IMG/VR virus record: IMGVR_UViG_3300009428_002972
Coordinates: 1 to 27,136 of that record
Reading direction: 5' to 3' (one strand)
Length of the DNA stretch: 27,136 bases
Source of the DNA: a virus
Shown: in pieces, positions 6,000 to 27,128 of the stretch
How the letters are laid out: every line of letters starts with the position of its first letter
Position numbering within the stretch: position 1 is the stretch's first letter
The notes under the pieces: model-generated
The model's database searches: none
The model's input: the letters and a program-made list of their open reading frames with translations, nothing else
What the model was told of the DNA's origin: nothing
Position numbers and translations under genes: made by a program

Positions 6000-6158
6000 T
6001 TATATTCTACATGTCATGTAATAAGATTCTTTCGGAAAGTGCATTTCTATTGTCAGCGTATCGTTGCTCCAGACAAAGTACTTGGCTGCGTTCTCTCTTA
6101 TAAGAGTGCACACCAGTACCCATTCCGGATCCTTTTTAGAGACTATGTAGACTTTCAT
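6000..6158 (-). CDS. Small unknown protein coupled to DNA polymerase III alpha
   Basis: 52 residues from ATG 6158 (MKVYIVSKKD), chosen because it overlaps the polymerase stop by ATGA; the frame also opens at 6206 inside the polymerase gene. Alternating beta-strand-like segments (KVYIVSK, WVLVCTLI, AKYFVW, LTIEMHF) suggest a small beta domain. No family recognised. Tight coupling to the polymerase hints at a shared transcript, possibly an accessory role (inference). Confidence 0.55.
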   Translation of the reverse strand: MKVYIVSKKDPEWVLVCTLIRENAAKYFVWSNDTLTIEMHFPKESYYMTCRI

Positions 6159-9100: not shown

Positions 9101-9622
9101 TCCATATTTCTCTAGAAGTCCAAAATCAACCCTAGGCTTACGATAGAAGTAATCACCCTTGTGAGACTCTGACACCATCTTAAAGATGTTGTTAAGCCCT
9201 TTCTGGCTCATAGCAATAAGAATAAGATGACGAGAGCGATTAATTTCAGAACGCCCTTTGGACTTAGACTCTCCTTCTGTTTCAATTGAGATTCCAGATG
9301 AATCATCTTTGATTTCTTTCTTACGTTTCTTGTCTGCTTTTGCCTGTTCATATTTCTGCTTCCAGTCTACCACATCTTCAATGAAGTATGCTTCGACGCC
9401 GAAGATCGGCTTGAAGTCTTTTCCTGCTTCTTTCATTTTCTTCGCATGAAGAACTTGATAAGCAAAACCATTCATGTTGCCATGATCTGTTAGGGCGAGA
9501 GCCTTTGAGCCATTACTGTGTGCGTACTCCATATGATCCTGTGGATAGCCGAAGCCATCAAAAGGAGAGCCAACTCCAGAATGTGCGTGTAAATTAACAA
9601 AATCGATATTCTTGATATCCAT
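6155..9622 (-). CDS. dnaE: DNA polymerase III alpha subunit (family C, DnaE type)
   Basis: 1155 residues, close to the usual 1100-1200 of DnaE. Copies DNA 5'-3' as the replicative polymerase. The PHP domain is at the N-terminus (NLHAHSGVGS near 10-19, LALTDHGNMNG 42-52). The polymerase core has GTGRGSAAGSLVAYALG and then PDIDYDV, with the two catalytic Asp residues, and the third Asp in FIKFDLLGLTTL. Further on are FQEQIALLAHKLG, FNKSHAVCYS and a helix-hairpin-helix-like segment (LTTIKGLGASAMEQVVNN). A Lys/Ser/Glu-rich insert lies near 95-130 in the PHP domain. The start has GAGAGG six bases before the ATG. Phages with a family C polymerase are a minority, and a family A polymerase is encoded in the same window. 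Confidence 0.95.
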   Translation of the reverse strand: MDIKNIDFVNLHAHSGVGSPFDGFGYPQDHMEYAHSNGSKALALTDHGNMNGFAYQVLHAKKMKEAGKDFKPIFGVEAYFIEDVVDWKQKYEQAKADKKRKKEIKDDSSGISIETEGESKSKGRSEINRSRHLILIAMSQKGLNNIFKMVSESHKGDYFYRKPRVDFGLLEKYGEDVIAASACLGGVYAGAYWSLHEEGDEAVLNEMRRLTERFQSILGDRWYGELQWNRVPQQHELNRHIIQIHKETGLKLISTADSHYPTPEAWQDREMYKRLGWLGRSKPEWLDMSLPAEIQELECELYPKNAEQMWESYKRYSKECDVSYDDQIILDSIKETQTIAFERIETFLPDNTVRLPSFVVPAGYTEDDYLQRLTTEGMFNILQEQDRADDKTAKEYKARIDEELSVISDRGFSKYFLTMKAVSDKASNMMLTGTGRGSAAGSLVAYALGITQVDPIKYGLLFSRFLRKDAEDYPDIDYDVAEPMELKDHLIEVWGNDCVAPISNWNTLQLKSLIKDISKMYDIEFREVNIVTGKMISEATPLAKKKHGMKAGMYIPTWEEVLEFSDTLKGFLRKYPEVEKHVKSMVGQYRSCSRHAGGVVIAENLDKHMPLIQSGGVIQTPWSEGQNVRQLEPMGFIKFDLLGLTTLRMIQGCIQRILQKQGNPNPSFMEIKEFYNNKLHPSKLNFDDQRVYKNVFHKGKWAGIFQFTESGAQNFCKSVKPSSIVDISAITSIFRPGPLSAGVHEDYVKAKEAPNKVFYENEIVREVTEETYGFLIFQEQIALLAHKLGDGISLDEGNLLRKLLTKKGTGKGAELMYSIKERFIKGCVQKRMRREDAAAMWQNFAYFSGYGFNKSHAVCYSMISYQCAWLMTYHEGEWLAAYLDKVSDKKKESAIAVAKTLGYKISDLNINISGKQWEYVSQDKMLLQPLTTIKGLGASAMEQVVNNRPFQTVEDFLFNPDVKYSKLNKKALDVLVRAGACNHLMDTRFNGTKHFWSAVVVDRPKNKKKFAENIEMYKAEGDFSKSEIITFKSELTGIFPFHLVMSDAIRIKLEQLPVVPISEYEIAMSLEADKDDELLVWFVPRKLIKKKTAKGKEYWILQVVDSNNAMVSIKCWNPSDKDTIFVNQPYMAKLEHSDQWGFSTRSIRKRFRLLG

Positions 9623-9703: not shown

Positions 9704-10105
9704 TTAATAACTGAAGTTTGTATCTTGAGGTGGCTTGTTCAGTCTGACGCCAATAGATCCGTCCATCAATGCCGCTGCAAAAACTGGTGGATCGATGTTA
9801 ATGTCATGATCTGTTTTCAGGTAGTTACACCAGAGGCGAGACGCATTTTGTGCGAGTTCAGCAGGCTCTGGGCCCTCTTCCCATTGTCCGGCTTTCTTTT
9901 TTGCAAATCCCAAGATTGCTATCACCAAAGATTGAGAGCCAGATATGTTACCAGATTTTCCGTTAATCATCCATGCTAGTCGATCCATGTTTTTTGGACC
10001 TTCTGGTACGATGTCGAAGTTACCATAGACTTCAGAGTTCTCTTTGAGAACTGTTTCCAACTCTTCTCTTATGAGTTGCTTGATATAAGATTTTGTTACT
10101 TTCAT
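9704..10105 (-). CDS. Unknown protein with the MKVTKSYIKQLIREEL N-terminal tag
   Basis: 133 residues. The first 16 residues are identical to those of the protein encoded just upstream (10153-10620) and close to those at 17987-18355, while the rest differs. The body includes WMINGKSGNISGSQ and ends with VRLNKPPQDTNFSY; no domain recognised. LKE at 20-22 resembles the LxE cleavage pattern of T4 prohead protease, so the tag may be a capsid-targeting leader removed on maturation. That is inference. It has an AAGGAAA site and lies 47 bases after the upstream gene, with no promoter motif between, so the pair is probably co-transcribed. Confidence 0.7.
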   Translation of the reverse strand: MKVTKSYIKQLIREELETVLKENSEVYGNFDIVPEGPKNMDRLAWMINGKSGNISGSQSLVIAILGFAKKKAGQWEEGPEPAELAQNASRLWCNYLKTDHDINIDPPVFAAALMDGSIGVRLNKPPQDTNFSY

Positions 10106-10152: not shown

Positions 10153-10620
10153 TTAGACATTTAACATATGGAACATAAAACCTATGACATCACTATTATT
10201 TGATAATTTAGCCAAAGTTCTACCTGACAGTTCTTTCATAAAGTGCTTCGATACTGCTGAACGAGTTCTGCTGGAAAACTCAGATCCATCTTTATTATAA
10301 TCCGTGTCCGTGGTGGTTTCTGCTTCATTTCTTTGGGAAGGATATCGTTCCCAACTTGCGGCTATCGCTTCACGGAATGCTGGCATAAATTCTCTACTAA
10401 TTATCATGAGATCCTTTTCATCATATGATCCTTGCATTATGGCAATGTGTTTTTTGCGTTTATCACCAACCAACATCATGAAGGCGTTAGCGCTATCTCC
10501 AAAAAAAGTTTTGGTGGCGTTGGGGTTTTCGTTAAATACCATAGTATTGGTTGTCTCATTCATTACTTTACTCAATTCTTCTCTTATGAGTTGCTTGATA
10601 TAAGATTTTGTTACTTTCAT
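10153..10620 (-). CDS. Unknown protein with the MKVTKSYIKQLIREEL N-terminal tag
   Basis: 155 residues from ATG 10620 with GGAG upstream. After the shared tag come ENPNATKTFFGDSANAFMML and VGDKRKKHIAIMQGSYDEKD, an alpha/beta-looking body with a polar linker near residues 95-118 (NEAETTTDTDYNKDG). No family recognised. VMNE at 19-22 lies where the other tagged proteins have LxE. The ACTATTTA motif lies 34-41 bases upstream instead of the 27-base element, which suggests different timing from the replication genes. A packaged or virion-associated protein is a reasonable guess, not shown. Confidence 0.72.
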   Translation of the reverse strand: MKVTKSYIKQLIREELSKVMNETTNTMVFNENPNATKTFFGDSANAFMMLVGDKRKKHIAIMQGSYDEKDLMIISREFMPAFREAIAASWERYPSQRNEAETTTDTDYNKDGSEFSSRTRSAVSKHFMKELSGRTLAKLSNNSDVIGFMFHMLNV

Positions 10621-12419: not shown

Positions 12420-13122
12420 CTCTAATTTTCCTATAAGCGTTAACTGTTATCGGGAATAGTTCTGTTGCGATGTCTAAACATGCTTCGGCAACTTTCTGTA
12501 TTTCCCATTGTGCTCCTTCGTGTGTACGAAGATCAATAAATTTAAGAAGATTGTTCAGATTAACTGTTCCGTAATATTCAGTATATAAATTTTGAGGAAG
12601 CACCATTCTAGCCTGTTCTCTGCAGATGCCTTTCTCCAGCATACTATTAAACAAATCCATTGAATGATCTTTGAATGCTGCAATTGCATCAGAAGTTTTG
12701 ATATATGTATCTGCAAACTTTGGTGTGATTGGTGGATTAATTAAGACTTCTTCGTTGGAGGCTTGTCTGTTGCTTTCGTGCTGTGTTCTGAAACTTTTCG
12801 GTAAATAAAACTGGATATCTTTATCCGTGTACCTGCGAGATATCTCATTGTAACTCCAAGTACGATGACGGTGATGCTGAGAACGCACGAAGAGAGGGAC
12901 AACAAACTTAAAAGTGACAAGATTATGCTCAAGAGTCGATGTGTGGCGATGTTTAATAAGATAATTAATAAGGCGTTTGTCTCTTCCATCAAGATCAGAT
13001 TTTTGTATACCAAAAGAAACCCTTGCAGAGTTAACAACGGTAATGTCACTACCCATATGATCAACGAGCGAAACGCTACCGATGCCATCGTTGTAGATAA
13101 AGATTGTTTTTCCATCACTCAT
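12409..13122 (-). CDS. thyX: Flavin-dependent thymidylate synthase ThyX
   Basis: 237 residues. Makes dTMP from dUMP with methylene-tetrahydrofolate, FAD and NADPH. The signature RHRTWSYNEISRRY (85-98) matches RHRxxSxNExSxRY exactly. Also seen: NSARVSFG (31-38), RHTSTLEH (59-66), and the C-terminal substrate-binding run ARMVLPQNLYTEYYGTVNL then DLRTHEGAQWEIQKVAE. The start overlaps the GroES-like stop by ATGA. With dUTPase supplying dUMP and class II RNR supplying deoxynucleotides, the phage has its own folate-sparing route to thymidine. Confidence 0.96.
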   Translation of the reverse strand: MSDGKTIFIYNDGIGSVSLVDHMGSDITVVNSARVSFGIQKSDLDGRDKRLINYLIKHRHTSTLEHNLVTFKFVVPLFVRSQHHRHRTWSYNEISRRYTDKDIQFYLPKSFRTQHESNRQASNEEVLINPPITPKFADTYIKTSDAIAAFKDHSMDLFNSMLEKGICREQARMVLPQNLYTEYYGTVNLNNLLKFIDLRTHEGAQWEIQKVAEACLDIATELFPITVNAYRKIRDGA

Positions 13123-13397
13123 TCTACCTCCAAAAGCAGGACAACAAAGTTTTCAGGTATAATTTGGAACACCTCTCCTTCGATCGAGATGTCCTCTATC
13201 ATCGAAGTTTCTACGACGCACTTGCCAAGATGGCGTATCTTACAGTCATCAGCAAAATCTTTAATACTAACAATCGTATATCTCTCTATTTCTTTTTGCC
13301 TATAGCCCTCTGGCAGTAGGAAGGAAGAGGAAGATGATTCTTCTTGCTCTTCATTGATTGGTATCTCTACCAACAGATGTCTGTTAACTGGTTTCAT
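13119..13397 (-). CDS. GroES-like co-chaperonin (T4 gp31-type role)
   Basis: 92 residues, the usual size of GroES. Layout matches Cpn10: KPVNRHLLVEI at the start, a disordered mobile loop with a serine run ending in the hydrophobic tripeptide FLL (27-29), LPEGYRQKEIERYTIVSI, and a C-terminal barrel strand set GEVFQIIPENFVVLLLE. T4 gp31 replaces host GroES to fold the capsid protein; a similar role with host GroEL is plausible, since no GroEL is encoded here. It starts the operon that includes ThyX and has the 27-base element 26 bases upstream and an AGGAG site. Sequence identity to GroES is low, so this is a pattern call. Confidence 0.66.
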   Translation of the reverse strand: MKPVNRHLLVEIPINEEQEESSSSSFLLPEGYRQKEIERYTIVSIKDFADDCKIRHLGKCVVETSMIEDISIEGEVFQIIPENFVVLLLEVE

Positions 13398-15416: not shown

Positions 15417-16781
15417 TTAATTCTCCTTGTTGTTTTTGTATCTTTGATATAAACTTGCTTTGTGTTCAGACAAAGACTTTTCTTCTATTTGTTGCATTGT
15501 CTCAGTCGACTCTGATAATACTTTCATGTTGACGCAACTCCAATCTGCCATAATTGGATAAACAATTCCATCCGGTCCATTACGATTTTTTGCAATAAAC
15601 ATTCTTCCAGTGTTGTTAACTTTGTCTTGAGCCGTTCGAGAGATGGAACAGATAAAGTCTGCAACAAAACACTTGTTGAAAGCCTCTGATATAGCCTCCA
15701 TCGTCACAACTTCAGCATTGAGTCCTGATCTGTTAGTCTGTGATGCTGTCCATAAGGGACAATCATATATCTGTGCAATACCACGCAATTCTTCATATAT
15801 GTTCTCCAAGTCATGTCTTTTCTCTCTCGTCATTGAGACTGGCTTAAGGAGATCCGCATAATCAACAATGATCATCCCAACCTCAACTCCTCTCTTCTTG
15901 AGTTTTTCTAAGTGGGATTTTATAGATTGTGTAGATGCAGATTTAGTTGGATATTCTTTAATTACTAAAGAGCCGCCTAATTCGCTAATTTGATCATAAA
16001 CTTTGTCTTTGAACGTATTCAAATCATTAAGAGGGACTCCGGTTATACAAGAATCATATCTTCTACCAATAACTTTATCAGAAAGTTCCATAGTGTAATG
16101 AACAACTGCTTTTCCTTGCTTAATCGCATTGGAACCAAGTGCGGTTAACACCATAGATTTCCCTGCTCCTGTTGGAGCCACAACGACTCCCATTTCCCTT
16201 TTACCAAGTCCGCCTTGTGTTATCATGTCGATCTCATCCCATCCTGTGGATAGAGGATCACGAGCCTTTAAATGATATCTTTCTTCGAAGTCTGTAAGGT
16301 ATTCATAACCTGCTTCGTTTCCGGTACCTAGTGACAATGCATCGTTGATTACTTTACTAATCTCATCGAACGAAGATGCTTGCATCAAATTCATTGTCTC
16401 TATCAGTGCTGCTTTTAGTTTTTGTTTTCTACAAAAATCTAAACTAGTCACTTTGATGTATTCGGAATCTTCTACAGTATTTGCATGTATTCTAGAGAAG
16501 TAATCTTTTACTTGCTGCTGGAGGACTTCGTTTTCTCCATCGAGTTCTGTTCTTAGTATTGTGATCATTGTTTTGTAGGTTGGGTGAACCAAATACTTCT
16601 TTCGATAGTCTATAATCTTAAGTACAAATACTTGCAAGTAAGATAATTCAAAAAAGTTTGGATCGAGAACCTCTGTAATCTGATCGCAATATGGGCGATC
16701 CTCTAGCATTAGTTGTACCATTGCCTCTTGAAAATGTTTTCCAAATCTAGAAAAATCTTCTGGCATTTTTCTCATATTCAT
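15417..16781 (-). CDS. Replicative DNA helicase (DnaB / T4 gp41 type)
   Basis: 454 residues from ATG 16781 with a GGAGGG site. Unwinds DNA 5'-3' at the fork as a hexamer. The N-terminal 160 residues are helical (DnaB N-domain-like). The RecA-fold motor has STGWDEIDMITQGGLGKREM, Walker A APTGAGKS (202-209), YTMELSDKVIGRR, Walker B GMIIVDYADLL and the H4 region TASQTNRSG. The C-terminus is charged. The promoter element lies 25 bases before the start and itself contains the stop of the upstream exonuclease. Confidence 0.93.
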   Translation of the reverse strand: MNMRKMPEDFSRFGKHFQEAMVQLMLEDRPYCDQITEVLDPNFFELSYLQVFVLKIIDYRKKYLVHPTYKTMITILRTELDGENEVLQQQVKDYFSRIHANTVEDSEYIKVTSLDFCRKQKLKAALIETMNLMQASSFDEISKVINDALSLGTGNEAGYEYLTDFEERYHLKARDPLSTGWDEIDMITQGGLGKREMGVVVAPTGAGKSMVLTALGSNAIKQGKAVVHYTMELSDKVIGRRYDSCITGVPLNDLNTFKDKVYDQISELGGSLVIKEYPTKSASTQSIKSHLEKLKKRGVEVGMIIVDYADLLKPVSMTREKRHDLENIYEELRGIAQIYDCPLWTASQTNRSGLNAEVVTMEAISEAFNKCFVADFICSISRTAQDKVNNTGRMFIAKNRNGPDGIVYPIMADWSCVNMKVLSESTETMQQIEEKSLSEHKASLYQRYKNNKEN

Positions 16782-16806: not shown

Positions 16807-16833
16807 TATACGTTTGTACTGTTGTTTTTATTC
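16807..16833 (-). promoter_or_regulatory. 27-base phage promoter element, helicase/RNR operon
   Basis: Copy GAATAAA-N10-CAAACGTATA. The TAA stop of the exonuclease is inside the GAATAAA box. Confidence 0.78.
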
Positions 16834-17796
16834 ATGCACTATTCTTCTCATTGTCTGGTGGAGTACATCCCATTTCAATGACATGAAGCCATCTTCCGCT
16901 AGCAACATCTTATAGCCGGTAAGGTTGAGATGCTTTTCTCGCCCCATCAAAGTGTTGTCAATGATTTTTCGCCTTTGATAGGAAATAGAAGGTTGATACA
17001 GTTGCATGATTTTGTAATTATCATAGATTATATCTTCACATTCTAGTACTTTTTCTAGATACTTACTTTTCTTCTCTTTAAGAGATTCCTTAGTAGCACT
17101 AAGTATGTCTCTGACTGAATATTCGGTTTCATTTTCTAGAAAAGGAAAGAATTTTACAACCCTTCCAAAACCGATACCCGGAACTCCAGGCAGATTGTCA
17201 GATGGATCACCTACCATTGCTCTCGCTAGTGCCATATTCTTAGGATGAATCTTTAAATCTTCAAGGATTCTCTTGGTGTTTAGGACTTCCCAAGGCTTTT
17301 TAGCAGGGCGACATAAGATAGTATTTTCATCGCATAGTTGCATAAAATCTTTGTCATTTGAAAGAATAACCTTCTTCCAGTCAGATAGTTCTTTTGACTG
17401 AGCGATTACAGCGATAACATCATCAGCCTCGACATCTTCGAACATAAACTGGCATATCGGAAGAGTGTCTAGATATTCTAGCAAGCGAGTTTGTTGCCAC
17501 ACTTTATTACTCATCTCTTCTTCTTGAGAGAAATCGTAATTCATATCTTTTGGAAGGTGGACTACTTTTCTTCCTGCTTTGTAATCTTTATTAATTTGGC
17601 GTCGACTTCTTGAGCCTCCACCTCCATCCCACACAACTACCACATCATCTGGTTCCGTCAATCTAATGGACTTCTGAAGACTTTTCATAAAACCTATACA
17701 TCCTCCAGATGGATATCCTTGTAGGCTAATGCTTGGATCTCTGGCATAACATCTGAAAAACATATTCAGTGCATCAATGATTAGAAGTTTTTTCAT
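16828..17796 (-). CDS. 5'-3' exonuclease, FEN-1 / T4 RNase H family
   Basis: 322 residues. Removes RNA primers and 5' flaps. PIN-like FEN motifs in order: LLIIDALNMFFRCY (4-17), VVVWDGGGGSRSRRQ (53-67), FEDVEADDVIAVI (119-131), ILSNDKDFMQL (144-154) and MVGDPSDNLPGVPGIG (194-209), which is the helix-3-turn metal and DNA-binding segment. All key acidic residues are present. Its ATG shares one base with the stop of a 35-residue frame, so translation is likely coupled. Its length suits T4 RNase H-type enzymes (about 305). Confidence 0.93.
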   Translation of the reverse strand: MKKLLIIDALNMFFRCYARDPSISLQGYPSGGCIGFMKSLQKSIRLTEPDDVVVVWDGGGGSRSRRQINKDYKAGRKVVHLPKDMNYDFSQEEEMSNKVWQQTRLLEYLDTLPICQFMFEDVEADDVIAVIAQSKELSDWKKVILSNDKDFMQLCDENTILCRPAKKPWEVLNTKRILEDLKIHPKNMALARAMVGDPSDNLPGVPGIGFGRVVKFFPFLENETEYSVRDILSATKESLKEKKSKYLEKVLECEDIIYDNYKIMQLYQPSISYQRRKIIDNTLMGREKHLNLTGYKMLLAEDGFMSLKWDVLHQTMRRIVHE

Positions 17797-17986: not shown

Positions 17987-18355
17987 TTATCTAATTCCGG
18001 CGGCTAAAAGAAACTCCTCGCCCAAAGTTCCATCTTCCATCATCTTTTTAACAACAGCGATGGTTAGTTCTCTATTGTCGTCTGCTAGTTTGTTTTGAAT
18101 CATATCAAACAACTCTTTTTCACTAAGATCGTTCTGAGTAACCCCAGAATCAGCAGGAGCATTGCGCCAATCATGACTCATTGCTCCAAAGTGAGCGTCT
18201 AAATAATGCTTCATGAAAGGGTGTTTTATTATTTTTTGAATTTCTCTTGGAGAAATTTGGGGAGCAGATTTCTTTTGCATCATATGTCTTCTGAGTCTAG
18301 ACTCGTTTAATTCTTCTTTTACTAGTCGCCTAATGTATGATTTTGAAACTTTCAC
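17987..18355 (-). CDS. Unknown tagged protein, GTG start
   Basis: 122 residues if GTG 18355 is the start, giving VKVSKSYIRRLVKEEL, which aligns with MKVTKSYIKQLIREEL of two other proteins in the window. An ATG at 18388 would add 11 residues but overlaps the ACTATTTA motif and lacks a ribosome site, while GTG has AGGAG eight bases before it. The body is helical with HPFMKHYLDAHFGAMSHDW and an acidic segment DLSEKELFDMIQNKLADDN. No family recognised. LNE (16-18) resembles a prohead protease site. It stands alone between a RecA terminator and the exonuclease promoter. Confidence 0.66.
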   Translation of the reverse strand: MKVSKSYIRRLVKEELNESRLRRHMMQKKSAPQISPREIQKIIKHPFMKHYLDAHFGAMSHDWRNAPADSGVTQNDLSEKELFDMIQNKLADDNRELTIAVVKKMMEDGTLGEEFLLAAGIR

Positions 18356-18377
18356 CGATAATTCTCCTATTTTGATA

Positions 18378-18385
18378 TAAATAGT
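18378..18385 (-). promoter_or_regulatory. ACTATTTA motif, possible second promoter class
   Basis: GACTATTTATATC lies 23-30 bases before the GTG start. It immediately follows the RecA terminator, so the gene needs its own promoter here. Confidence 0.48.
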
Positions 18386-18388
18386 CAT

Positions 18389-18463: not shown

Positions 18464-19615
18464 TTATTGTCCATCGTCATAATACTGGGATGCCTCGCCC
18501 AATCTTTTATCAAACTTCATAATGACTTCTTCATCAATGATGCCCAAAACTATTTTCTTAAACTCTTCATTAGTCTTTACTAATTCAGCAAACTTGGATT
18601 TTTGAAATTTCTGCTCAAAACCGTCTTTCTTGAGAGTAAACCAAGCGCCGCTATTGTTGAGATGCTCAGATGATGATATCGCATCGAACCAAGATTCTTC
18701 GTCTTGTATACCTACATGATCTCCCCATAGAATTTTAAAGTTACACATACGTCCATGTGTTCCAAAGCGAGATTTCTCTAGTTTACATTTAACTTCAGAA
18801 CCAATCCTATAGCCTTTTTCATCTGTAACAAATGATGCCTTTGCCTTTCTCCCTGTAAGCCATATACGAAGAGAATAAGAATATATCAATGCTTTTCCTC
18901 CGGGAGTAAAATAAGGCGTTGTCATCGCTTCAGAAGGAGATCTGGTAATATTGTCTTTCAACTGATTTAATACCAACAATGCGGAGTTGGAATTTGATAT
19001 TGGCTGTAAGAGTTTAGCCAAGCCTTTTGACAGGATACGTGGCTTAACTGCCATCGTGCTCTGTGGATTATAATCTGACTCCAAATCAGCAATCGCAGGA
19101 GTAAGAGCAAGTGAATCCCATACAAAGAGATTTTTCTCCTCTCCTGAGGATAAGATCGTCTCAATTGTCTCAAGAACAAACTCAACATTTTGCGCCTGAA
19201 CATATACAAAGTCTCCAAGGCTTTCCTCACCTTCTGTGTTTAGCATACAGCCGCACTCTTCTAAGAAGTCTGAACTGATTGCAGACTCAGAGTCAAAATA
19301 ATAAACATTGTAACCTTTTTTTTGCGCATTTCCAGAGATCTGTGCCGCCATGTAAGACTTTCCAGTGCCACTTAATCCTGCTAATTCAGAAATTCTCCCT
19401 ACTGGGATTCCTGCCTTCTTGCCTCTACAAACAATAGAGTCTAGCCAAGTGGATCCTGTGGATATCCAATCATATACATCGGTTGGATTTTCTTGTGTCA
19501 GATCATGTGCCACAGCGCCACCTGCCAACTTATTAATTATTTTCAGTTTGTCCTTGAAAGATAGTTTTCCAGTGTTATTGGTTTTACCATCTAGCATACT
19601 TCTTTTACGAGCCAT
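18464..19615 (-). CDS. RecA/UvsX-type recombinase
   Basis: 383 residues, near UvsX length (391). Forms ATP-dependent filaments on single-stranded DNA for strand exchange, repair and recombination-driven replication. Walker A GLSGTGKS is at 80-87, preceded by PVGRISELA; a Walker B-like strand LFVWDSLALTP is at 163-173; LLVLNQLKDN and FTPGGKALIYSYSLRIWL match the L2 and dimer regions of RecA/UvsX. The C-terminus is acidic and polar. It has an AAGGA site and its own promoter element 21 bases upstream, and it is closed by a strong terminator, so it is a single-gene unit. Confidence 0.92.
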   Translation of the reverse strand: MARKRSMLDGKTNNTGKLSFKDKLKIINKLAGGAVAHDLTQENPTDVYDWISTGSTWLDSIVCRGKKAGIPVGRISELAGLSGTGKSYMAAQISGNAQKKGYNVYYFDSESAISSDFLEECGCMLNTEGEESLGDFVYVQAQNVEFVLETIETILSSGEEKNLFVWDSLALTPAIADLESDYNPQSTMAVKPRILSKGLAKLLQPISNSNSALLVLNQLKDNITRSPSEAMTTPYFTPGGKALIYSYSLRIWLTGRKAKASFVTDEKGYRIGSEVKCKLEKSRFGTHGRMCNFKILWGDHVGIQDEESWFDAISSSEHLNNSGAWFTLKKDGFEQKFQKSKFAELVKTNEEFKKIVLGIIDEEVIMKFDKRLGEASQYYDDGQ

Positions 19616-19721: not shown

Positions 19722-20489
19722 TCATGAAAGTAACTCTTTAAATGCTGCATCTACGTCAGAGGCTTCTTTCGTATTGCTGCTACTAGTATATTTGGTAGTT
19801 TCCGATTCTGCTGATTCTCCTGCTTCTGCAGATAAGAATTCAGACAACAGTTGCTCAATTTCTTCGTGAGTCTTCTGATTGAAGTTGCTATCAAATTCTG
19901 GAATATTATCCAACATTGATGACACATCTGCAGATTCTTCTGCAAGTGCAGAAGGACGTCGACGAGGATGGATTTTTGTCACAGGAAACTGTGCTCCTGC
20001 TGGTTTACCATAATTGATAACTAAATCAGTACCGCCATCTGTATCTGTAATATCACCATAGTCTGGATTGAGAACCAATTGAACTAGTTCTGTATATGCC
20101 ATCTTACCATAGCCCCAGAGTCGAACGCCAGTGGCTTCTTCTCCACGAACTACTACTGGTGAAAAGAAACGTTCCTTCGGGAATAAAGTCTTGCAAAACT
20201 TCATAGTATCTTTGTCATTAGATGCTTTTGCTTCTTGCCATGTGCTCCAAGCAAAATCGCATACAGGACAATCCTTGCCATGCTGTTTCTTAGGACAGAC
20301 GAAACCAGGGTTCTTACCTACATTATAGTGAAAGTAGTACTGCTTGAACGGATCTCCATCGGGGGTGGGTACAATACGAATTGTTTGATCACCATCTTGT
20401 GGTTTCCAAAAAATGTTTTGTTTTGAGTCCCCTCCTTTTCCTTGAAGTGCGTTGAGTTTTTGTTGCATTTTAGTGAAATCTATAGCCAT
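19722..20489 (-). CDS. Single-stranded DNA-binding protein, T4 gp32 type
   Basis: 255 residues. Coats single-stranded DNA at forks and recruits replication and recombination proteins. The N-terminus MAIDFTKMQQKLNALQ is the basic cooperativity region. A zinc-binding site is visible in CPKKQHGKDCPVC (C-x6-C-x2-C with a His inside). The core has NIFWKPQDGDQTIRIVPTP. Residues about 180-255 form an acidic, Ser/Glu-rich tail ending DVDAAFKELLS, as in gp32. Zinc ligand spacing differs from T4. The leader is the longest of the promoter-driven genes (74 bases) and carries two small hairpins followed by an A-rich stretch into the ribosome site. Confidence 0.92.
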   Translation of the reverse strand: MAIDFTKMQQKLNALQGKGGDSKQNIFWKPQDGDQTIRIVPTPDGDPFKQYYFHYNVGKNPGFVCPKKQHGKDCPVCDFAWSTWQEAKASNDKDTMKFCKTLFPKERFFSPVVVRGEEATGVRLWGYGKMAYTELVQLVLNPDYGDITDTDGGTDLVINYGKPAGAQFPVTKIHPRRRPSALAEESADVSSMLDNIPEFDSNFNQKTHEEIEQLLSEFLSAEAGESAESETTKYTSSSNTKEASDVDAAFKELLS

Positions 20490-20518
20490 AATAATTCTCC
20501 TTTGTGTGTTTAATTTTG

Positions 20519-20552
20519 ACTTTGTCTAAAGTAGAAATGACGATCTGCCATT
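20519..20552 (-). promoter_or_regulatory. Two small hairpins in the SSB mRNA leader
   Basis: AATGGC/GTCATT (20552-20536, 5-base loop) and ACTTT/AAAGT (20532-20519, 4-base loop), followed by an unstructured A-rich run to AAGGAG. This resembles the layout of the T4 gene 32 autoregulatory leader. Confidence 0.45.
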
Positions 20553-20563
20553 CCCCTATATTT

Positions 20564-20590
20564 TATACGTTTGAGTTTGGTGTTTTATTC
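20564..20590 (-). promoter_or_regulatory. 27-base phage promoter element, SSB gene
   Basis: Copy GAATAAA-N10-CAAACGTATA, 74 bases before ATG 20489. Confidence 0.78.
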
Positions 20591-20607
20591 AGTATTTCTA
20601 CTTAAAT

Positions 20608-20757
20608 CTAATCTAATTCTTGATCGGAAACATATTTATTCCCACCTTTGCCATCTGAGACTTTATGATGGCTATTATCTCCACTCCAGCCATTATCTTT
20701 AGTTTCATAAGAGTCCTTTACTGGACGTCCTTTGTATGTTTTTCTACTTTTACTCAT
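20608..20757 (-). CDS. 49-residue basic hydrophilic protein
   Basis: ATG 20757 to TAG 20608, beginning MSKSRKTYKGRPVKD and rich in Gly, Asn, Asp, Lys and Ser, so probably disordered or nucleic-acid-binding. The AAGGGG site overlaps the stop of the upstream gene (20767) and lies at normal distance from the ATG. It fills the gap between two firm genes, with the SSB promoter right after it. No family recognised. Confidence 0.6.
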   Translation of the reverse strand: MSKSRKTYKGRPVKDSYETKDNGWSGDNSHHKVSDGKGGNKYVSDQELD

Positions 20758-20766
20758 TTTATCCCC

Positions 20767-21048
20767 TTATTGATTTGAATTGTTAAAATTATTTAGAATT
20801 GTTTCTTCTGCGTCGAAAGAAACAACTTCCTCTGTATTGGCTGTTCGCCAATTGAATGTACGCCATCCTTGAGTCTCAAGATCCCATACGGTTTCCAGTC
20901 CTTCTTTAAGGTTACGTGTTTTTCCTGTGCCTTTAGTATTGCCTTCTACAAATGTCGTTGGCAAGTCTTGTGAGCGAACAAAGAACATAGTTCGAAGTTC
21001 TCCATTTGCTTTTGTGAATGATCCACGATAATATTTGATGTTTTCCAT
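20767..21048 (-). CDS. Small beta-barrel-like phage protein (DUF2693/WYL_2-like)
   Basis: 93 residues. The N-terminal half YYRGSFTKANGELRTMFFVR followed by DLP resembles the short Sm/SH3-like beta domain seen in phage proteins grouped as DUF2693; that match is from memory of the pattern. The rest includes LETVWDLETQGWRTFNWRTA and an acidic, Asn-rich end. It has AAAGGAG and a promoter element 31 bases upstream. Such small domains often bind nucleic acid, but no function is known here. It is co-transcribed with the 49-residue gene. Confidence 0.55.
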   Translation of the reverse strand: MENIKYYRGSFTKANGELRTMFFVRSQDLPTTFVEGNTKGTGKTRNLKEGLETVWDLETQGWRTFNWRTANTEEVVSFDAEETILNNFNNSNQ

Positions 21049-21079
21049 TTTTTTCTCCTTTAGTTGTTATGGTATTAAT

Positions 21080-21106
21080 TATACGTTTGTACTTGGCGGT
21101 TTATTC
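21080..21106 (-). promoter_or_regulatory. 27-base phage promoter element, DUF2693-like gene
   Basis: Copy GAATAAA-N10-CAAACGTATA, 31 bases before ATG 21048 and 9 bases after the methyltransferase stop. Confidence 0.78.
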
Positions 21107-21115
21107 AAAAAAGTT

Positions 21116-21634
21116 TCAAACTTCACTTCCCCAAACTGTCCACCCTTCTCTCTTCTTTCTAGAGAACATCTCCAAGTATGGACCGAAAGATCGACTTTCA
21201 ATCCATATAAAAGATTCCTCTGGCTTGCTAGAATGAGCACCTCTTTTCGCTTCAATTACTGAAGGTAGTGAGTTGTTATCTTTCTTTACAACCGTGTGCT
21301 TGGCGCCTTTAGTTCCAAAGAGAAGAAGTTCATGCTTTCCTCTGGCATATTGCCCCAAGCCAATTCGATTCTTTACCCATACTATGTTTGTCACATATCT
21401 GAAGCCTAAAGACTTCATCACATGAAGAGCATCTTCTAAGTGGTTATTCGTAGCCCACATATACATGTGTGCAACATCACCAATATCATTCCAATGCTCT
21501 GATTGTAAGATGACTCTGATAATGTCAGGTGTTTTGAGCAGTGCATAATGCTTGTCCGCTCCTCTTTTGATCTTTCCTCCTCCACGCTCATTCCATGGCG
21601 GATCTAGTAAGATAGTTTTAAACTTTGTAGTCAT
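21116..21634 (-). CDS. MT-A70-type N6-adenine DNA methyltransferase
   Basis: 172 residues. The catalytic DPPW follows ILL at 10-13 (KTILLDPPWNERGGG), then MYMWATNNHLEDALHVMKSL and FRYVTNIVWVKN, a Gln-Tyr-Arg-Gly segment LGQYARGKHELLLFG, and the C-terminal HSSKPEE and YLEMFSRKKREGWTVWG that recur in MT-A70 enzymes. These bacterial and phage members methylate adenine N6 in DNA. With the SPPY enzyme at 4791 the phage has two orphan methyltransferases. Its AGGGGAG ribosome site is complementary to its promoter spacer. Confidence 0.92.
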   Translation of the reverse strand: MTTKFKTILLDPPWNERGGGKIKRGADKHYALLKTPDIIRVILQSEHWNDIGDVAHMYMWATNNHLEDALHVMKSLGFRYVTNIVWVKNRIGLGQYARGKHELLLFGTKGAKHTVVKKDNNSLPSVIEAKRGAHSSKPEESFIWIESRSFGPYLEMFSRKKREGWTVWGSEV

Positions 21635-21661
21635 TCTCTCCCCTCTTAGTGTTGTATTATT

Positions 21662-21688
21662 TATACGTTTGAGGGGGAAACTTTATTC
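21662..21688 (-). promoter_or_regulatory. 27-base phage promoter element, MT-A70 gene
   Basis: Copy GAATAAA-N10-CAAACGTATA. GAATAA holds the last codon and stop of the tubulin-like gene. The spacer CCCCCTC can pair with GAGGGG at the ribosome site. Confidence 0.78.
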
Positions 21689-22522
21689 AATCTGAATATC
21701 AGAAGAAGATTTAACCGCAAACGAGAACCCTGATTTTAAATCTGTAGGATATACACCATAAGATACTGATTTGTCATCTGAATCTGAGGTTACTATTCTA
21801 TTTAATTTATCGAGAAGGTTTTCGTCTTCCTCAACTTCTATACGATTGATACCAAAGAAATATTTAACTTGATTACACTTTTCTAAAGAAAAAGTTTCTA
21901 ACATTAGTTCTGAGTCTATATTCACATAAGACAAACAACATATCCTTGAAGAGATGTATTCCTCTCTAAAAGTGTCAAATACTGGATCTGAGTTGGTATA
22001 TACATTAAGCCAATGAACTGAAGAGACAATAAAATTATTAATCTTAGAAAAGAAGTTTACTATAGATGTCTTTCCAATGATGCTAGACATCATATCATTG
22101 TCGATCAATAGTATCTTACTGAAGACACCTGATCTTGTATATTGCTGTAATATATTTAAGTGTGATCTATTTCTTAATTTAGATTTTTGATCCATTGAGG
22201 AAGTATCTGGCTTGATATATATAATATTAATCTTCCTACCTGATAACTCTCTCAAGATCCACAAAGAACATGCTGATACTTTACCGGATCCACATAAGAT
22301 AAAATATAGTTCCTCATCTTCGTCTAGGCTAGATTTAAGCCTCTTTAGATCAACCGGATTGGCATCATACAATTCTGCTGAGCCTTGCTTGGGGATATAA
22401 AAGCAATTCTTTTTTCTTTTTAGTTTTTCATCTGTATCAATCTTAAATACAGTATACTGAGAGTATTGCTTAAACAACTCTGCTATTTTACATCCTGCCT
22501 TTCCTAATCCTATTATATTCAT
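21683..22522 (-). CDS. Divergent FtsZ/tubulin-like protein
   Basis: 279 residues. The order of segments follows the FtsZ/tubulin GTPase fold: NIIGLGKAGCKIAELF (2-17, T1 loop), TVFKIDTDEK (T2), IPKQGSAELYDANP (T3-like), FILCGSGKVSACSLWILREL (about 74-93, position of the GGGTGTG T4 loop), NIIYIKPDTS (T5), then SKILLIDNDMM (position of VIPND), a long helix with NFFSKINNFIVSSVHWL (H7) and NSDPVFD, which may be the catalytic T7 loop. The T4 loop has lost most glycines, so nucleotide binding may differ. Phage tubulins (PhuZ, TubZ) centre or partition DNA. This is a pattern-based fold call without alignment. It has a weak AAGGA site and an unusual AT-only leader. Confidence 0.6.
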   Translation of the reverse strand: MNIIGLGKAGCKIAELFKQYSQYTVFKIDTDEKLKRKKNCFYIPKQGSAELYDANPVDLKRLKSSLDEDEELYFILCGSGKVSACSLWILRELSGRKINIIYIKPDTSSMDQKSKLRNRSHLNILQQYTRSGVFSKILLIDNDMMSSIIGKTSIVNFFSKINNFIVSSVHWLNVYTNSDPVFDTFREEYISSRICCLSYVNIDSELMLETFSLEKCNQVKYFFGINRIEVEEDENLLDKLNRIVTSDSDDKSVSYGVYPTDLKSGFSFAVKSSSDIQIE

Positions 22523-22530
22523 TTTAGTTC
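22511..22530. repeat. Leader repeat 1, overlaps tubulin-like start
   Basis: 20 bases matching 22591-22610 at 18 positions. It covers the start codon of the tubulin-like gene. Confidence 0.7.
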
Positions 22531-22545
22531 TTAATTCCTTATTTC

Positions 22546-22560
22546 TAATTGTTTTAGTTT
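22546..22560. repeat. Leader repeat 3 (partial)
   Basis: 15 bases matching the right part of 22591-22610 at 13 positions. Its right end is 30 bases from repeat 1's and 50 from repeat 2's. Confidence 0.55.
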
Positions 22561-22590
22561 AATTATAATATATCTTACTTAATAATACTA

Positions 22591-22610
22591 TATTATAATC
22601 ATTTTAGTTT
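22591..22610. repeat. Leader repeat 2
   Basis: Second 20-base copy (see 22511-22530), 80 bases away. Confidence 0.7.
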
Positions 22611-22630
22611 ATTTATAGTATATTATATAA

Positions 22631-23812
22631 TTATATATTAATTCTATTTAAGTTATATAAGTCTTTACCTGCTGAAACAGATGTCATAAAGTTGCCCAAC
22701 TTTGTGTCTCTGTATTCTTCGATAATAGGCTTAATAAGTTCCTTGTCCTCTGAGTTAAAGTCGAGAATGATGCTGTCATGAAGAGTGAATGCTATATAAC
22801 TCTTTTTGCCCTGTAAGAGTTTATAGATAGCCACCATTCTATCAAGCACCAAATCTGCAGATGTACTTTGAATAAGATAGTTTAAAGCATGATAATCATC
22901 ACATTTTATCTTTCTTTTGAATATATTCTCAACTGAACCGTATAAGAAGTAACTGCCCAAAATTGAATCTCTATCATAATGTCCGTTAGAGATTAAATCG
23001 TCTGAGTTAGGATTGTATAACCAAGCAAAGAATCTTTTCTTTGCATCATCTCTACTACTATGATAAAGATTTTTTGCATTGTACCCATGAATGTCTTCTT
23101 TAGGCTGTTCTTTACCCATCAGTGCTAATAGAGTTCTAGCCTCTGCAGCGTTATAATCCAATTCAATGAAGAAGTCGTTGTTAGGCTTGATACAAGCCCT
23201 GTACTCTTTCTTCATGTTCATGATGGGTAACGAACCCCTGTGTAAGGCTAGCCTGCCCGTTTTAGAGCCGAATAGGTTATAGTTACAATATGCGTCCCTG
23301 CCATTAAAAGACTTATATAGAACTTTTGCTTTATTGTCGTTCCAAAAGTTAGTTAATGGTTTTGGATCAAAATTGACTTTTCTGTATTTTATATCAGACA
23401 AAACCTCCATAGTTTTCAACAAGTGTGTATAATTTTGTGGACGTTCGTATTTCTCAAATATCCATTCGCAAATCTGATTTCTCATATCGCAATATTCTAA
23501 CAAAAATCTCTTTGGCGTTAAGTCAAAAAAACAATTGTCTACTATATTAACCTTTGCTAAATTATTAGCACGAATAAAAGCCTTGAGTCTGTTTGACACC
23601 GATTCCCACTGGCTTAACAAGTGAGAGGGACAAACTTCATCAAGGCTTTTACCCGATACATAAATCGAAGCATATTCAATGTCCATTCCTTTTAGAAAAT
23701 TAGAATAACTCCAAGTCTTTGATAAGCCTTTCGGTATATCATTGAATTGAAGATCACCATTAGAATAGACACCAACGCACTCTGATTTATCATCGAGCGT
23801 TTGGAACAACAT
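22631..23812 (-). CDS. Small family A DNA polymerase without exonuclease domain
   Basis: 393 residues. The palm and fingers of a Pol I-type polymerase are complete: TGRLAL, motif A DYNAAEARTLLALMG (D and E conserved), motif B RDDAKKRFFAWLY with Arg, Lys, Phe and Tyr at the E. coli 754, 758, 762 and 766 spacing, LIQSTSADLVLDRM and motif C HDSIILD. The N-terminal 130 residues are unrecognised and hold no 3'-5' exonuclease motifs; the thumb and fingers are short. Klenow fragment is about 600 residues. It may do repair, gap filling or lesion bypass next to the family C enzyme. It has an AGGAGGG site and a promoter inside the upstream gene. Confidence 0.88.
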   Translation of the reverse strand: MLFQTLDDKSECVGVYSNGDLQFNDIPKGLSKTWSYSNFLKGMDIEYASIYVSGKSLDEVCPSHLLSQWESVSNRLKAFIRANNLAKVNIVDNCFFDLTPKRFLLEYCDMRNQICEWIFEKYERPQNYTHLLKTMEVLSDIKYRKVNFDPKPLTNFWNDNKAKVLYKSFNGRDAYCNYNLFGSKTGRLALHRGSLPIMNMKKEYRACIKPNNDFFIELDYNAAEARTLLALMGKEQPKEDIHGYNAKNLYHSSRDDAKKRFFAWLYNPNSDDLISNGHYDRDSILGSYFLYGSVENIFKRKIKCDDYHALNYLIQSTSADLVLDRMVAIYKLLQGKKSYIAFTLHDSIILDFNSEDKELIKPIIEEYRDTKLGNFMTSVSAGKDLYNLNRINI

Positions 23813-23820
23813 ACACCCTC

Positions 23821-25308
23821 CTATATTTTGATTGTAAATGTTCTATGTTTATACGTTTGGTGGTTGTTGAATATTCTATAATTCTCTTCTTTTTTAGTAC
23901 GATGTCCATAGTTCGCACCTAGTCCGACAATTACAGTCGTTTTGTCATTAATGTGGTTAAGCGACTCTATGAATCCATAATGTTTGTATACTTGGTATGT
24001 CTCTTCAAAGGCAAGATCAAACTCTTCTTGAGTCCAGTCTTTATGGATCTCTTTTGCTCTTATGAAGTAATAGAACTGTAACAGTTTCTTGTCTGTGAAA
24101 GAATCCTTCTCTCTTTCCTTTCTACTGATTATTCTAGTTTTTGTTCTTCCGCCAGATCTACAAGGTTCAAAATAATTGGGGTAAGATGCGATATAAGAGT
24201 CATAATATGATAAAAAATATTTTTTAAGCATATTCACCTCATATAAGTGAGTTCTGTAATAACATGTGTCAAACATACTCTGAAGTGTGTTGAGCCCTTT
24301 TTCTTCCATTCTTCTTTTCATCTCGAAAGACTCTAAATCAGCAATTATCCTCCATGGAGCATTTTTATCTGACATGAAACCGTATGCATTCAAAATCTTT
24401 TGAAATTGTACGAAATGTTTGTCTAATATGTACTTTCTGTATTTCGACTCGTCGTCATCATGTTTTAAAGTCGATATTTCGAAGACAATTCCAGAAATTC
24501 TTGGATCGGCTGTCTTCCTTAGTTGCAAGTTTGATCTGGTTATAGGGAATTTAGGTAGAAACTTATGCAAAAATATCATAAATTCATTTTTATAGTCTTT
24601 GAAGTTTCTAATCTTCACAGAGTTCCTAGGATCATTCACATACTTTGTAGTAAAAGAGGTAAATATCGCCTCCATTGTCTTATGATGATCTTGAACAAAA
24701 CTCTTCCACCCTGTTTTCACCCTTAGATCATAAAATATGCTATTTTTAGATATTTTGCCTGTTTCTTTCATTTTGTCAATCTTTTCAATCATCTCGTTTA
24801 AGGCTTCACAAACGAAGTTCAAGAGCATTACATTGTCTGTCCCGTTAACTAGGCTAAGAAACTTTTCGGAGGGGTATATAGGGCGGTTATGAGTGTCTAT
24901 TCTACCATAAAAGGTTTTATCATGGATCATATCCAGTGATACAAAAGGAGTGAAAATATCTCTAGAGGTGCCTTGGTATTTTGACTGATCGTCAACTGCG
25001 TTTCCATCTAAAGAGTTTTGTGATCCTGGCTTGGCGCCTTGAGGGTATGCTCTGTGCCTGTAGTATTGTTTATGATAAAACAGGTTTTTAATTTTCTTAT
25101 CATTCTTGCCTAATGGGATGACAACCTTGTTAAAAGGTTCGTCGTAATCATTGATGTCTGAATTTTTGACAATATTCTCAACTAATTCGTCAATCTCTTT
25201 GTCCGTAAATGTACTCTTAAAGTCTAATGCTTCTTCGTATCTGCTATCAGTCTGAAGGGCTATCTTTTCTTTTATTTGATATCTTTTGTTATTTATATGA
25301 TTTTTCAT
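23821..25308 (-). CDS. Probable virion structural protein
   Basis: 495 residues, starting two bases after the stop of the previous gene with GGGGGATAGG ahead of ATG. Soluble, Lys- and Asp-rich, without signal peptide or membrane helix. Recognisable only by feel: NAPWRIIADLESFEMKRRME resembles segments in large marine phage virion proteins, and FLHKFLPKFPITRSNLQLRK precedes it. No enzyme motif found. Its operon partner looks like a tail or baseplate protein, so a structural role is inferred. The last codons contain the promoter of the polymerase gene. Confidence 0.5.
   Translation of the reverse strand: MKNHINNKRYQIKEKIALQTDSRYEEALDFKSTFTDKEIDELVENIVKNSDINDYDEPFNKVVIPLGKNDKKIKNLFYHKQYYRHRAYPQGAKPGSQNSLDGNAVDDQSKYQGTSRDIFTPFVSLDMIHDKTFYGRIDTHNRPIYPSEKFLSLVNGTDNVMLLNFVCEALNEMIEKIDKMKETGKISKNSIFYDLRVKTGWKSFVQDHHKTMEAIFTSFTTKYVNDPRNSVKIRNFKDYKNEFMIFLHKFLPKFPITRSNLQLRKTADPRISGIVFEISTLKHDDDESKYRKYILDKHFVQFQKILNAYGFMSDKNAPWRIIADLESFEMKRRMEEKGLNTLQSMFDTCYYRTHLYEVNMLKKYFLSYYDSYIASYPNYFEPCRSGGRTKTRIISRKEREKDSFTDKKLLQFYYFIRAKEIHKDWTQEEFDLAFEETYQVYKHYGFIESLNHINDKTTVIVGLGANYGHRTKKEENYRIFNNHQTYKHRTFTIKI
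23850..23876 (-). promoter_or_regulatory. 27-base phage promoter element inside a coding region
   Basis: GAATATT-N10-CAAACGTATA, inside codons of the structural gene, encoding RIFNNHQTYK near its C-terminus. The second half is perfect while the first box is altered, perhaps by coding constraint. It lies 37 bases before ATG 23812. Confidence 0.62.
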
Positions 25309-25310
25309 GC

Positions 25311-27128
25311 CTATCCCCCTAGAATTGAACCTACTATATCTCCTGCCTTTCCAATTGCACCTGAAAGCAGTCCTTTGTCGAGTTCTGGTGAATGTTCCAA
25401 TACACCTTTACATTTAGCCTCGATTGAGTCCACGGTTCCACCCGATTGAGCAAATACACAATCTAATGTAGTTTCATACTGCCCTCCTCTGGAAATAGTA
25501 GATTCAACAGTAATTATATCGTAATATCCACCGATTCCTAAAAGATTAGAAATGGATCCTAAATTATTAGGATCTGGCTGCCCACTAATTTTATTATATC
25601 CATCGACTTCTGGACGTCCAAAGCCCATTGGCGGATTAAGAAAGACTTTCATTCCGGGACGAAATAGAGAGTTTCCTACCAACTTTACACTAGCATTATA
25701 CACATCTCTGATCTGTCCTAAATTTCGAACCTCTGCCTGTCTCGCCTCTCTCAGTCCTTCAACATCCGACTTTGAATAATCAATTGACTTGACTATTCCC
25801 CTCTCGTTCCCGATATAAAAGTGATAGATACCTTTCGCACGATCTTCCTCCTCTTCTGCTATCAGTTCTTGAGCGGTATATGAGTTCATGTAAAGGAAAA
25901 GACAATCCATCACTGGCTCGTTCTCAGTCCTACTATCAAATTCTAAATCAATATCTTCAACATGTAGTCTCCCATTCGGGATAAAGTAATTCTGTTCTAG
26001 CCCGTGCTTTACTCCCATTGTCTTTGTTATGGCGAAGTTTGTTAAAGATATATCAATTGATCTTTTTTCCCTTCCCTTGGAAAAGCATTCTGATGGTTGT
26101 AATACTTTTTTGACAAGTCTCTCGATAATATCCTTAATAAATAGTTTAAGTGGATATGAAGACAGTTGCTTGCGCACAACCACCTCAAAAAAGAATGTCT
26201 GAAAGTCTTGGTAAGATATTGGCAAATCTGCCAAATTAAATTGGATTCTGTTTCCCCTAGGGTGATTGACTACAATCGGTCCTGTGATGAGCGTTGGTGC
26301 GCCTGCCTCTGGGCTTAGAGTAGGATTCATTATTTGACATGCTGTACTGATTATGTCTCCCAAGAAAAGAAACTCAATATGCCCCTTAGAAGCATCTTCT
26401 TGTTCTGCCTTTGCTTTGTCTATAGCCTGATCAAGTTTTTCTTCTCCCGAATCACTGAAGTATCCACCTTCGTCTCCAAAGGCTTCGACAACATCTTGTG
26501 CGTCATCGGCGGAGTCTGGCTGAGATTTTTCAACTAAAGACTTTATCTTAGGGATGACTGGGCGTGGAGAATCCTCATCTATACTTTCGATCCAATCATC
26601 AATATCCCCTTTACTGACTTCTAGTTTATAAACCTTGTCATTAATGTCTGTTAAAAATTGTCGATATATAGACTCTTTCGCTGTAGTCAAGTTTTCTTCA
26701 AGATCATCTTTAGTTTCTTTGATCTCTTCCTGTAAAGATTCTACGTTGTCTTTGTAGGGATCAATAGCATCTGAGGAAGGATCTTCGATTCTCAAACACT
26801 CAATATACTCATTCATTTCTTGGATTCTTTGCCTTTTCACCTCTGCGCCTTCTTCTGCCTTCTCGACTGAACTAGTCTGGCTCATCTTTGAAATTAAAGA
26901 TAATATATCAGCATCATTTCCATTAATTGATTCTTCTAGCGCTCCAATATAGTCAACAGAAAGTCCAATCTTTCCATTCTCGCTAATCTCAAAGTTATGC
27001 TGAACTAAGTTTAGTATGAGTGACATTTCTTGCCTCTCTAAATCTTGGATCAATCTTCTGGTTTCTGTATCGGTTAAGCCGGGTAGTTTGTTGTCACTTA
27101 ACTGTGGCAGTGCCCAGCCAATGTCCAT
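25311..27128 (-). CDS. Probable tail/baseplate structural protein, N-terminus may lie outside the window
   Basis: 605 residues from ATG 27128. The frame stays open to the right edge (eight bases), so this ATG may be internal. Residues 90-165 form an acidic coiled coil (IQEMNEYIECLRIEDP; ESLQEEIKETKDDLEENL). The C-terminal third has beta-rich parts such as SLFRPGMKVFLNPPMGFG and GGYYDIITVESTISRGGQYE, a pattern typical of tail hub or baseplate proteins with a C-terminal barrel, and a Gly-rich end. No enzymatic motif seen. It would be co-transcribed with the next gene. Confidence 0.52.
   Translation of the reverse strand: MDIGWALPQLSDNKLPGLTDTETRRLIQDLERQEMSLILNLVQHNFEISENGKIGLSVDYIGALEESINGNDADILSLISKMSQTSSVEKAEEGAEVKRQRIQEMNEYIECLRIEDPSSDAIDPYKDNVESLQEEIKETKDDLEENLTTAKESIYRQFLTDINDKVYKLEVSKGDIDDWIESIDEDSPRPVIPKIKSLVEKSQPDSADDAQDVVEAFGDEGGYFSDSGEEKLDQAIDKAKAEQEDASKGHIEFLFLGDIISTACQIMNPTLSPEAGAPTLITGPIVVNHPRGNRIQFNLADLPISYQDFQTFFFEVVVRKQLSSYPLKLFIKDIIERLVKKVLQPSECFSKGREKRSIDISLTNFAITKTMGVKHGLEQNYFIPNGRLHVEDIDLEFDSRTENEPVMDCLFLYMNSYTAQELIAEEEEDRAKGIYHFYIGNERGIVKSIDYSKSDVEGLREARQAEVRNLGQIRDVYNASVKLVGNSLFRPGMKVFLNPPMGFGRPEVDGYNKISGQPDPNNLGSISNLLGIGGYYDIITVESTISRGGQYETTLDCVFAQSGGTVDSIEAKCKGVLEHSPELDKGLLSGAIGKAGDIVGSILGG

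Follow-up and report, generated by a model that had tools for sequence, protein, structure and literature searches.

So far, phage tubulins have been regarded as belonging to nucleus-forming phages of the phiKZ type and to a small number of TubZ partition systems. In the canonical tubulin cycle, T7 and H8 of one subunit hydrolyse the GTP of the next subunit. The subunit contact of the phiKZ TubZ protofilament is formed by T7, the base of H8 and S9, and T3 takes part in it (PMC3678025). The dynamics of PhuZ need GTP hydrolysis, and the D190A mutant forms static filaments (PMC4244570). In a survey of marine jumbo phages, tubulin homologs were found only in its phiKZ-like cluster (PMC9123017).

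Here we describe TUB, a predicted tubulin-fold gene in a stretch of viral DNA of 27,136 nucleotides (the window; IMG/VR record IMGVR_UViG_3300009428_002972, positions 1 to 27,136). This gene was missed by sequence searches and is constant in the replication module across hundreds of phage fragments from the environment, and it extends the known range of the tubulin/FtsZ superfamily.

The TUB gene and its predicted fold

The reading frame of TUB lies on the minus strand, starts with ATG and fills positions 21683-22522, where the plus strand is full of stops. The original prediction had placed a divergent FtsZ/tubulin-like gene at these positions; it is a real gene of 279 codons for amino acids, for which the minus strand is given here, and all the segments quoted for it (GLGKAGCKIAEL, FKIDTDE, FILCGSGKVSACSLWILREL and IDNDMM) are found in the ORF. 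Relatives cover the protein from end to end with identity from 82% down to about 30%. The first three were 82, 68 and 63% identical to TUB, and successive rounds extended the set to 19, to 116 and then to at least 543 related IMG/VR stretches; all of the relatives are in IMG/VR contigs. Distinct members are all about 275-300 aa long, and one copy is present in each of 11 large contigs (131-204 kb). Compared with the nearest relative (L001), dN was 0.099 and dS was 1.05 (dN/dS about 0.09), indicating that TUB is under purifying selection. In one stretch (L074, 779-1951), a MazG-like gene is in frame with TUB; when compared with L070 this arrangement resembles a deletion or a misjoin/misassembly, and it was not counted as a gene fusion.

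Searches with single sequences gave little. The window TUB and one divergent member had no tblastn match in named phages among 50,697 phage records, and no cellular relative was obtained in a pattern-limited scan of genome contigs with alignment A2. As a single sequence, TUB had no significant match in Pfam, PHROG or PDB, and the chance-level matches to TrkA_N (0.038), phrog_24232 (0.0083) and basigin (0.082) were discounted. Pfam Tubulin matched 6 of the 65 scanned members weakly, with a best E value of 0.043.

An AlphaFold2 model of TUB was built from alignment A4, which contains 65 natural relatives. The mean pLDDT was 93.3 and the pTM 0.91, and all five models were above 92; an earlier model from 4 sequences (pLDDT 50) was discarded. 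The layout of tubulin/FtsZ is present in the model, with the N-terminal nucleotide-binding domain, the long H7 and the C-terminal beta-rich domain. When the model was searched against the PDB with Foldseek, the best 50 rows were FtsZ and TubZ (best E 4.6e-12). In VIA, the best match was CetZ 3zid (Z 24.3, 257 of 279 residues aligned, rmsd 3.0), and FtsZ 2r6r (Z 22.6), TubZ 2xka (Z 22.6) and eukaryotic tubulins (Z about 21) were matched as well. Between a predicted model and CetZ, FtsZ, TubZ and tubulins, Z differences of this size do not suffice to tell which branch is nearest to TUB. Among the predicted viral structures of BFVD, the best match was the 'FtsZ' of an uncultured Caudovirales phage (A0A6J5RW92, TM 0.76 by query).

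The 124-member TUB profile was compared by hhalign with a CetZ profile made of three CetZ sequences taken from PDB entries. The score was 45.6 (P 6e-6, probability 85%), versus at most 18.3 for 40 column shuffles, 14.4 for the reversed TUB profile, at most 20.8 for other window proteins and at most 26.5 for 66 single ORFs from other phages. For comparison, CetZ and phiKZ PhuZ scored 42.4 against each other. The single sequences of E. coli FtsZ and PhuZ stayed at the background level against the TUB profile, and therefore only the CetZ profile result was used.

The fold and profile searches that had been proposed alongside the original prediction thus gave a confident model with the full-length tubulin/FtsZ fold and a CetZ match well above its controls. 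Neither of the two outcomes named beforehand as refuting the prediction arose, and since the model matches tubulins from end to end, we rejected a plain Rossmann/TrkA reading. The model, with which the CetZ profile match agrees, shows TUB as a compact, shortened protein of the tubulin/FtsZ fold, and the two together support the 'new tubulin branch' that had been suggested for it.

Nucleotide-site loops and conserved residues

The loops of TUB were assigned from the profile alignment and from DSSP of the predicted model, not by superposition, and conservation was counted over 124 members; the coordinates below are all on the minus strand. The T1-like loop GLGKAGCKIA (residues 5-14, 22481-22510) keeps the pattern GLGxAGCxIA across the family, with G7 in 123 of the members, and Asp29 of T2 is kept in 112. 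The guanine-contact Asn positions are N142 in the T6-like loop (residues 140-146, 22085-22105) and N162 in the central helix H7 (residues 154-176, 21995-22063). Each is kept in 119/124 members, and they align with FDND and GYDEIN of CetZ, respectively. H7, which also carries H170 and N173, is the long helix that had been expected from the sequence.

The phosphate side is different. CetZ has GGGTGSG in T4 and GHGVGAD in T3. The T4-like loop of TUB (CGSGKVSA, residues 77-84, 22271-22294) is two residues shorter, and the family reads (C/G)G(S/A)Gx(I/V)S(A/G) in place of GGGTG(S/T)G; the reduced glycine loop reported at first as GSGKVSACS is thus real. T3, the phosphate-contact loop, is deleted, with a gap opposite GHGVGAD in the profile alignment. 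Since the guanine-side Asn residues, T1, T2 and a part of T4 are kept, nucleotide binding by TUB is plausible.

In the T7 region (residues 177-193, 21944-21994) the acid pair is not conserved. By an approximate match of positions, both acids are present in 41/124 members and neither in 34/124; the window TUB has D179 and D183 with altered spacing. H8 is absent from the model, which has no helix between residues 177 and 226, and, by an inferred correspondence, a loop and a hairpin appear to stand in place of H8 and H9 of FtsZ. No C-terminal tail is present, as members end a few to about 20 residues past the last strand (SSSDIQIE in the window TUB).

These features bear on the reading that TUB forms dynamic filaments driven by GTP, as PhuZ and TubZ do, and positions or segregates phage DNA by an ordinary mechanism under an unusual sequence. 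The full-length fold match that includes TubZ (Z 22.6), the conserved guanine side, the location in a replication module and the two T7 acids kept by the members closest to the window (e.g. NSDPVFD) would all suit such a filament. However, T7, the base of H8 and S9 build the protofilament interface of phiKZ TubZ (PMC3678025), whereas in TUB the acid pair of T7 is complete in only a third of members (41/124) and the model has no H8. Neither an annotated TubR-like neighbour (the adjacent genes are PolA, MT-A70, WYL_2 and gp32) nor a tubC-like iteron array (within 20400-25400) was found by TUB, in a record that is a fragment and whose phage may have such a locus farther away. Because the T3, T4, T7, H8 and tail features are deleted, shortened or not conserved, a canonical GTP-hydrolysing PhuZ/TubZ filament appears unlikely, and the missing features for stacking and hydrolysis speak against a PhuZ-like spindle. 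We consider the dynamic filament as a whole improbable. A 'filament without GTPase activity', which had also been suggested for this gene, would fit the lost T3, T4, T7 and H8 features.

Other residues are new to the TUB family and are invariant or nearly so, namely Y23, E50, Y52, Q126, R130, S131, H170 and N173. Three of them belong to the family signature QQYTRS (residues 126-131, 22130-22147), in which Q126 and R130 are found in 124/124 members and S131 in 123/124. Judged by topology, several of these residues are expected on the face opposite the nucleotide, as a possible remodelled interface.

The replication module and its phages

TUB is located in a cluster of minus-strand genes. Upstream of it are two conserved, syntenic proteins with no assigned function, p605 (605 aa, 25311-27128) and p495 (495 aa, 23821-25308), and the family A DNA polymerase PolA (393 aa, 22631-23812). 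Downstream are an MT-A70 adenine methyltransferase (21116-21634) and a small WYL_2 protein (20767-21048), each found in only some relatives, followed by a gp32-like single-strand DNA-binding protein (19722-20489), a UvsX/RecA-like recombinase (18464-19615), a 5'-3' exonuclease (16828-17796) and a DnaB-like replicative helicase (15417-16781). The polymerase and methyltransferase neighbours named in the original prediction were thus borne out. The order p605 - p495 - PolA - TUB - (MT-A70) - (WYL_2) - gp32 - UvsX - exonuclease - DnaB holds wherever it is spanned.

Some further features of the window were observed. The 393-aa PolA has no separate exonuclease domain that could be seen, and a putative Pol III alpha-like polymerase, judged by sequence, is encoded at 6155-9622. 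A GroES-like co-chaperonin is present at 13119-13397, with no GroEL in the window. Three otherwise different small proteins (9704-10105, 10153-10620 and 17987-18388) share the peptide KV(T/S)KSYI(K/R)xL(I/V)(R/K)EEL at or near the N-terminus, which is perhaps a targeting or processing tag.

PolA is directly upstream of TUB in all loci spanning both, and the order PolA-TUB-gp32 was found in 217/217 loci, a count that includes overlapping stretches of the same contig. To remove the selection on TUB, loci were also picked by PolA alone. TUB was directly downstream in 80/80 of these loci, which are the best 80 of 544 PolA relatives, with a few cut by the contig end and some contigs common to the TUB search. 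TUB starts at the PolA stop codon or overlaps it in 90 of 163 distinct cases, suggesting translational coupling; in nearly half of the loci the two genes are separated by a gap or by an additional gene. The shared gene order is a sign of co-inheritance and co-expression rather than of contact.

In the window, the PolA stop and the TUB start are separated by an AT-rich spacer of 108 bases (22523-22630, minus strand) with two promoter-like copies of TATAA(A/T)TAAACTAAAA. One copy contains TATAAATA, the T4 late-promoter word, which occurs again at 21658-21665 and 25290-25297. The gp32, WYL_2 and MT-A70 genes are each closely preceded by a copy of a 29-nt repeat (20563-20591, 21079-21107 and 21661-21689, respectively; 76-83% alike), which looks like a shared promoter element.

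Each of the largest TUB contigs (184-204 kb) has a T4-like terminase and a single copy of TUB; in the 184.9 kb contig, this terminase shares 47% identity with that of immuto. The closest counterparts of the terminase and of the replication module are those of Flavobacterium phage immuto, Microcystis phage Mel-JY01 and an uncultured phage of 484 kb, and these phages resemble the Far-T4 type (PMC4360716). Mel-JY01 and immuto have the same order of PolA - gp32 - UvsX - exonuclease - DnaB, with other small genes between PolA and gp32 where TUB would sit. Among the proteins in this slot (L330 1346-2318 and L092 14844-15562; immuto, Mel-JY01), one of about 130-150 aa is similar between both phages and has the motif HRKKESNTxYTIN. 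A TUB profile search of stretches of Mel-JY01, immuto and the 484 kb phage, and of RM378, gave no TUB. Since TUB was undetected in the stretches of immuto and Mel-JY01 and in RM378, it is limited to one group within a wider Far-T4-like set. Far-T4-like phages are linked mostly to Flavobacteriales (PMC13037479); psbA is absent from ten contigs, which is too little to fix the host. These results indicate that TUB, in a single copy, is a fixed part of the replication module in a large T4-related (Far-T4 type) phage group.

The constant position next to PolA, often with apparent translational coupling, would agree with TUB being a non-polymerising accessory subunit that binds PolA directly, e.g. 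a processivity or regulatory factor. The lost assembly features and the family-specific invariant Q126, R130, S131, H170 and N173 point in the same direction. In contrast, no fusion with PolA was found, distinct members having the uniform length given above, and the phages that keep the module, Mel-JY01 and immuto, showed no TUB in the stretches read, as did RM378. We regard such a subunit as possible but doubtful.

Median identity to the window was 34% for TUB, 46% for PolA, 53% for gp32 and 63% for UvsX, so by protein identity TUB evolves faster than the three others. This faster divergence would also be compatible with a role facing the host. The original prediction had offered an FtsZ mimic that blocks host division as one reading; the FtsZ fold of TUB and its faster divergence would suit such a mimic, or an antagonist of FtsZ. 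The proposal found no direct support and is a poor fit with the fixed position behind PolA in the replication module, with purifying selection and with one copy per genome; in addition, the nearest profile match is CetZ and not E. coli FtsZ. We consider a division-blocking mimic very improbable.

Proposed function and comparison with known tubulins

The position behind PolA and the coupling argue for a role at DNA replication, and the guanine-side conservation argues for nucleotide binding. From these we infer, with about even confidence, that TUB binds nucleotide and serves the phage replisome as a tubulin-fold scaffold or partner. TUB would still bind nucleotide but would not run the canonical tubulin cycle, because T3, T7, H8 and the C-terminal tail are either missing or not conserved. 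Its role would be that of a static scaffold or of a direct partner of PolA, gp32 and UvsX, and it may hold or localise the replication site. If TUB polymerises, it could do so via the remodelled face (Q126/R130/S131, H170, N173). TUB offers an experiment of nature on which parts of the tubulin fold are dispensable, and it lets one test directly whether this fold can support DNA replication when no canonical GTPase filament is formed.

CetZ (3zid, 4b45 and 4b46) is the best structural match of TUB, with 16% identity over 257 residues of 3zid, and the sole profile match above controls. The two have IGxGxAGxKxxxxF, FDND and GYDxIN-type motifs in common. However, CetZ is a cellular archaeal protein of about 330-395 aa, whereas TUB is a phage protein of 279 aa with no H8 in its model. 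Bacterial FtsZ has the same fold (Z 20.8-22.6) and its T6/H7 segment is aligned, but its GGGTGTG, GAGANP T3 loop and C-terminal conserved peptide are absent from TUB, in which the T7 acids are not conserved. The phage 'FtsZ Cell division GTPase' A0A6J5RW92 (452 aa, 15% identity) belongs to another sequence family.

PhuZ, the TubZ of phiKZ, is phage-encoded and has the tubulin fold like TUB, and the first 30 residues are similar (GGAGFRIGELF... versus GKAGCKIAELF...). Nevertheless, PhuZ against TUB scored 0.6 bits by HMM and 20.5 by hhalign, no better than unrelated proteins. PhuZ has a C-terminal tail that docks on the next subunit and TUB has none. PhuZ phages are phiKZ-like and nucleus-forming, whereas the TUB phage is T4-related; no chimallin match was found in 11 large TUB contigs, in a search run without a positive control. 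TubZ of Bacillus plasmids and phages (TubZRC) has the same fold (Z 22.6), but has a long C-terminal tail that TUB lacks.

We tentatively propose, at somewhat less than even confidence, that TUB represents a third viral tubulin class distinct from PhuZ and TubZ, which would bind nucleotide without the canonical GTP-hydrolysis and stacking features and would be an obligatory part of the replication machinery in an abundant T4-related group. If this is true, TUB would be a tubulin that works as a replisome part rather than as a dynamic cytoskeletal filament.
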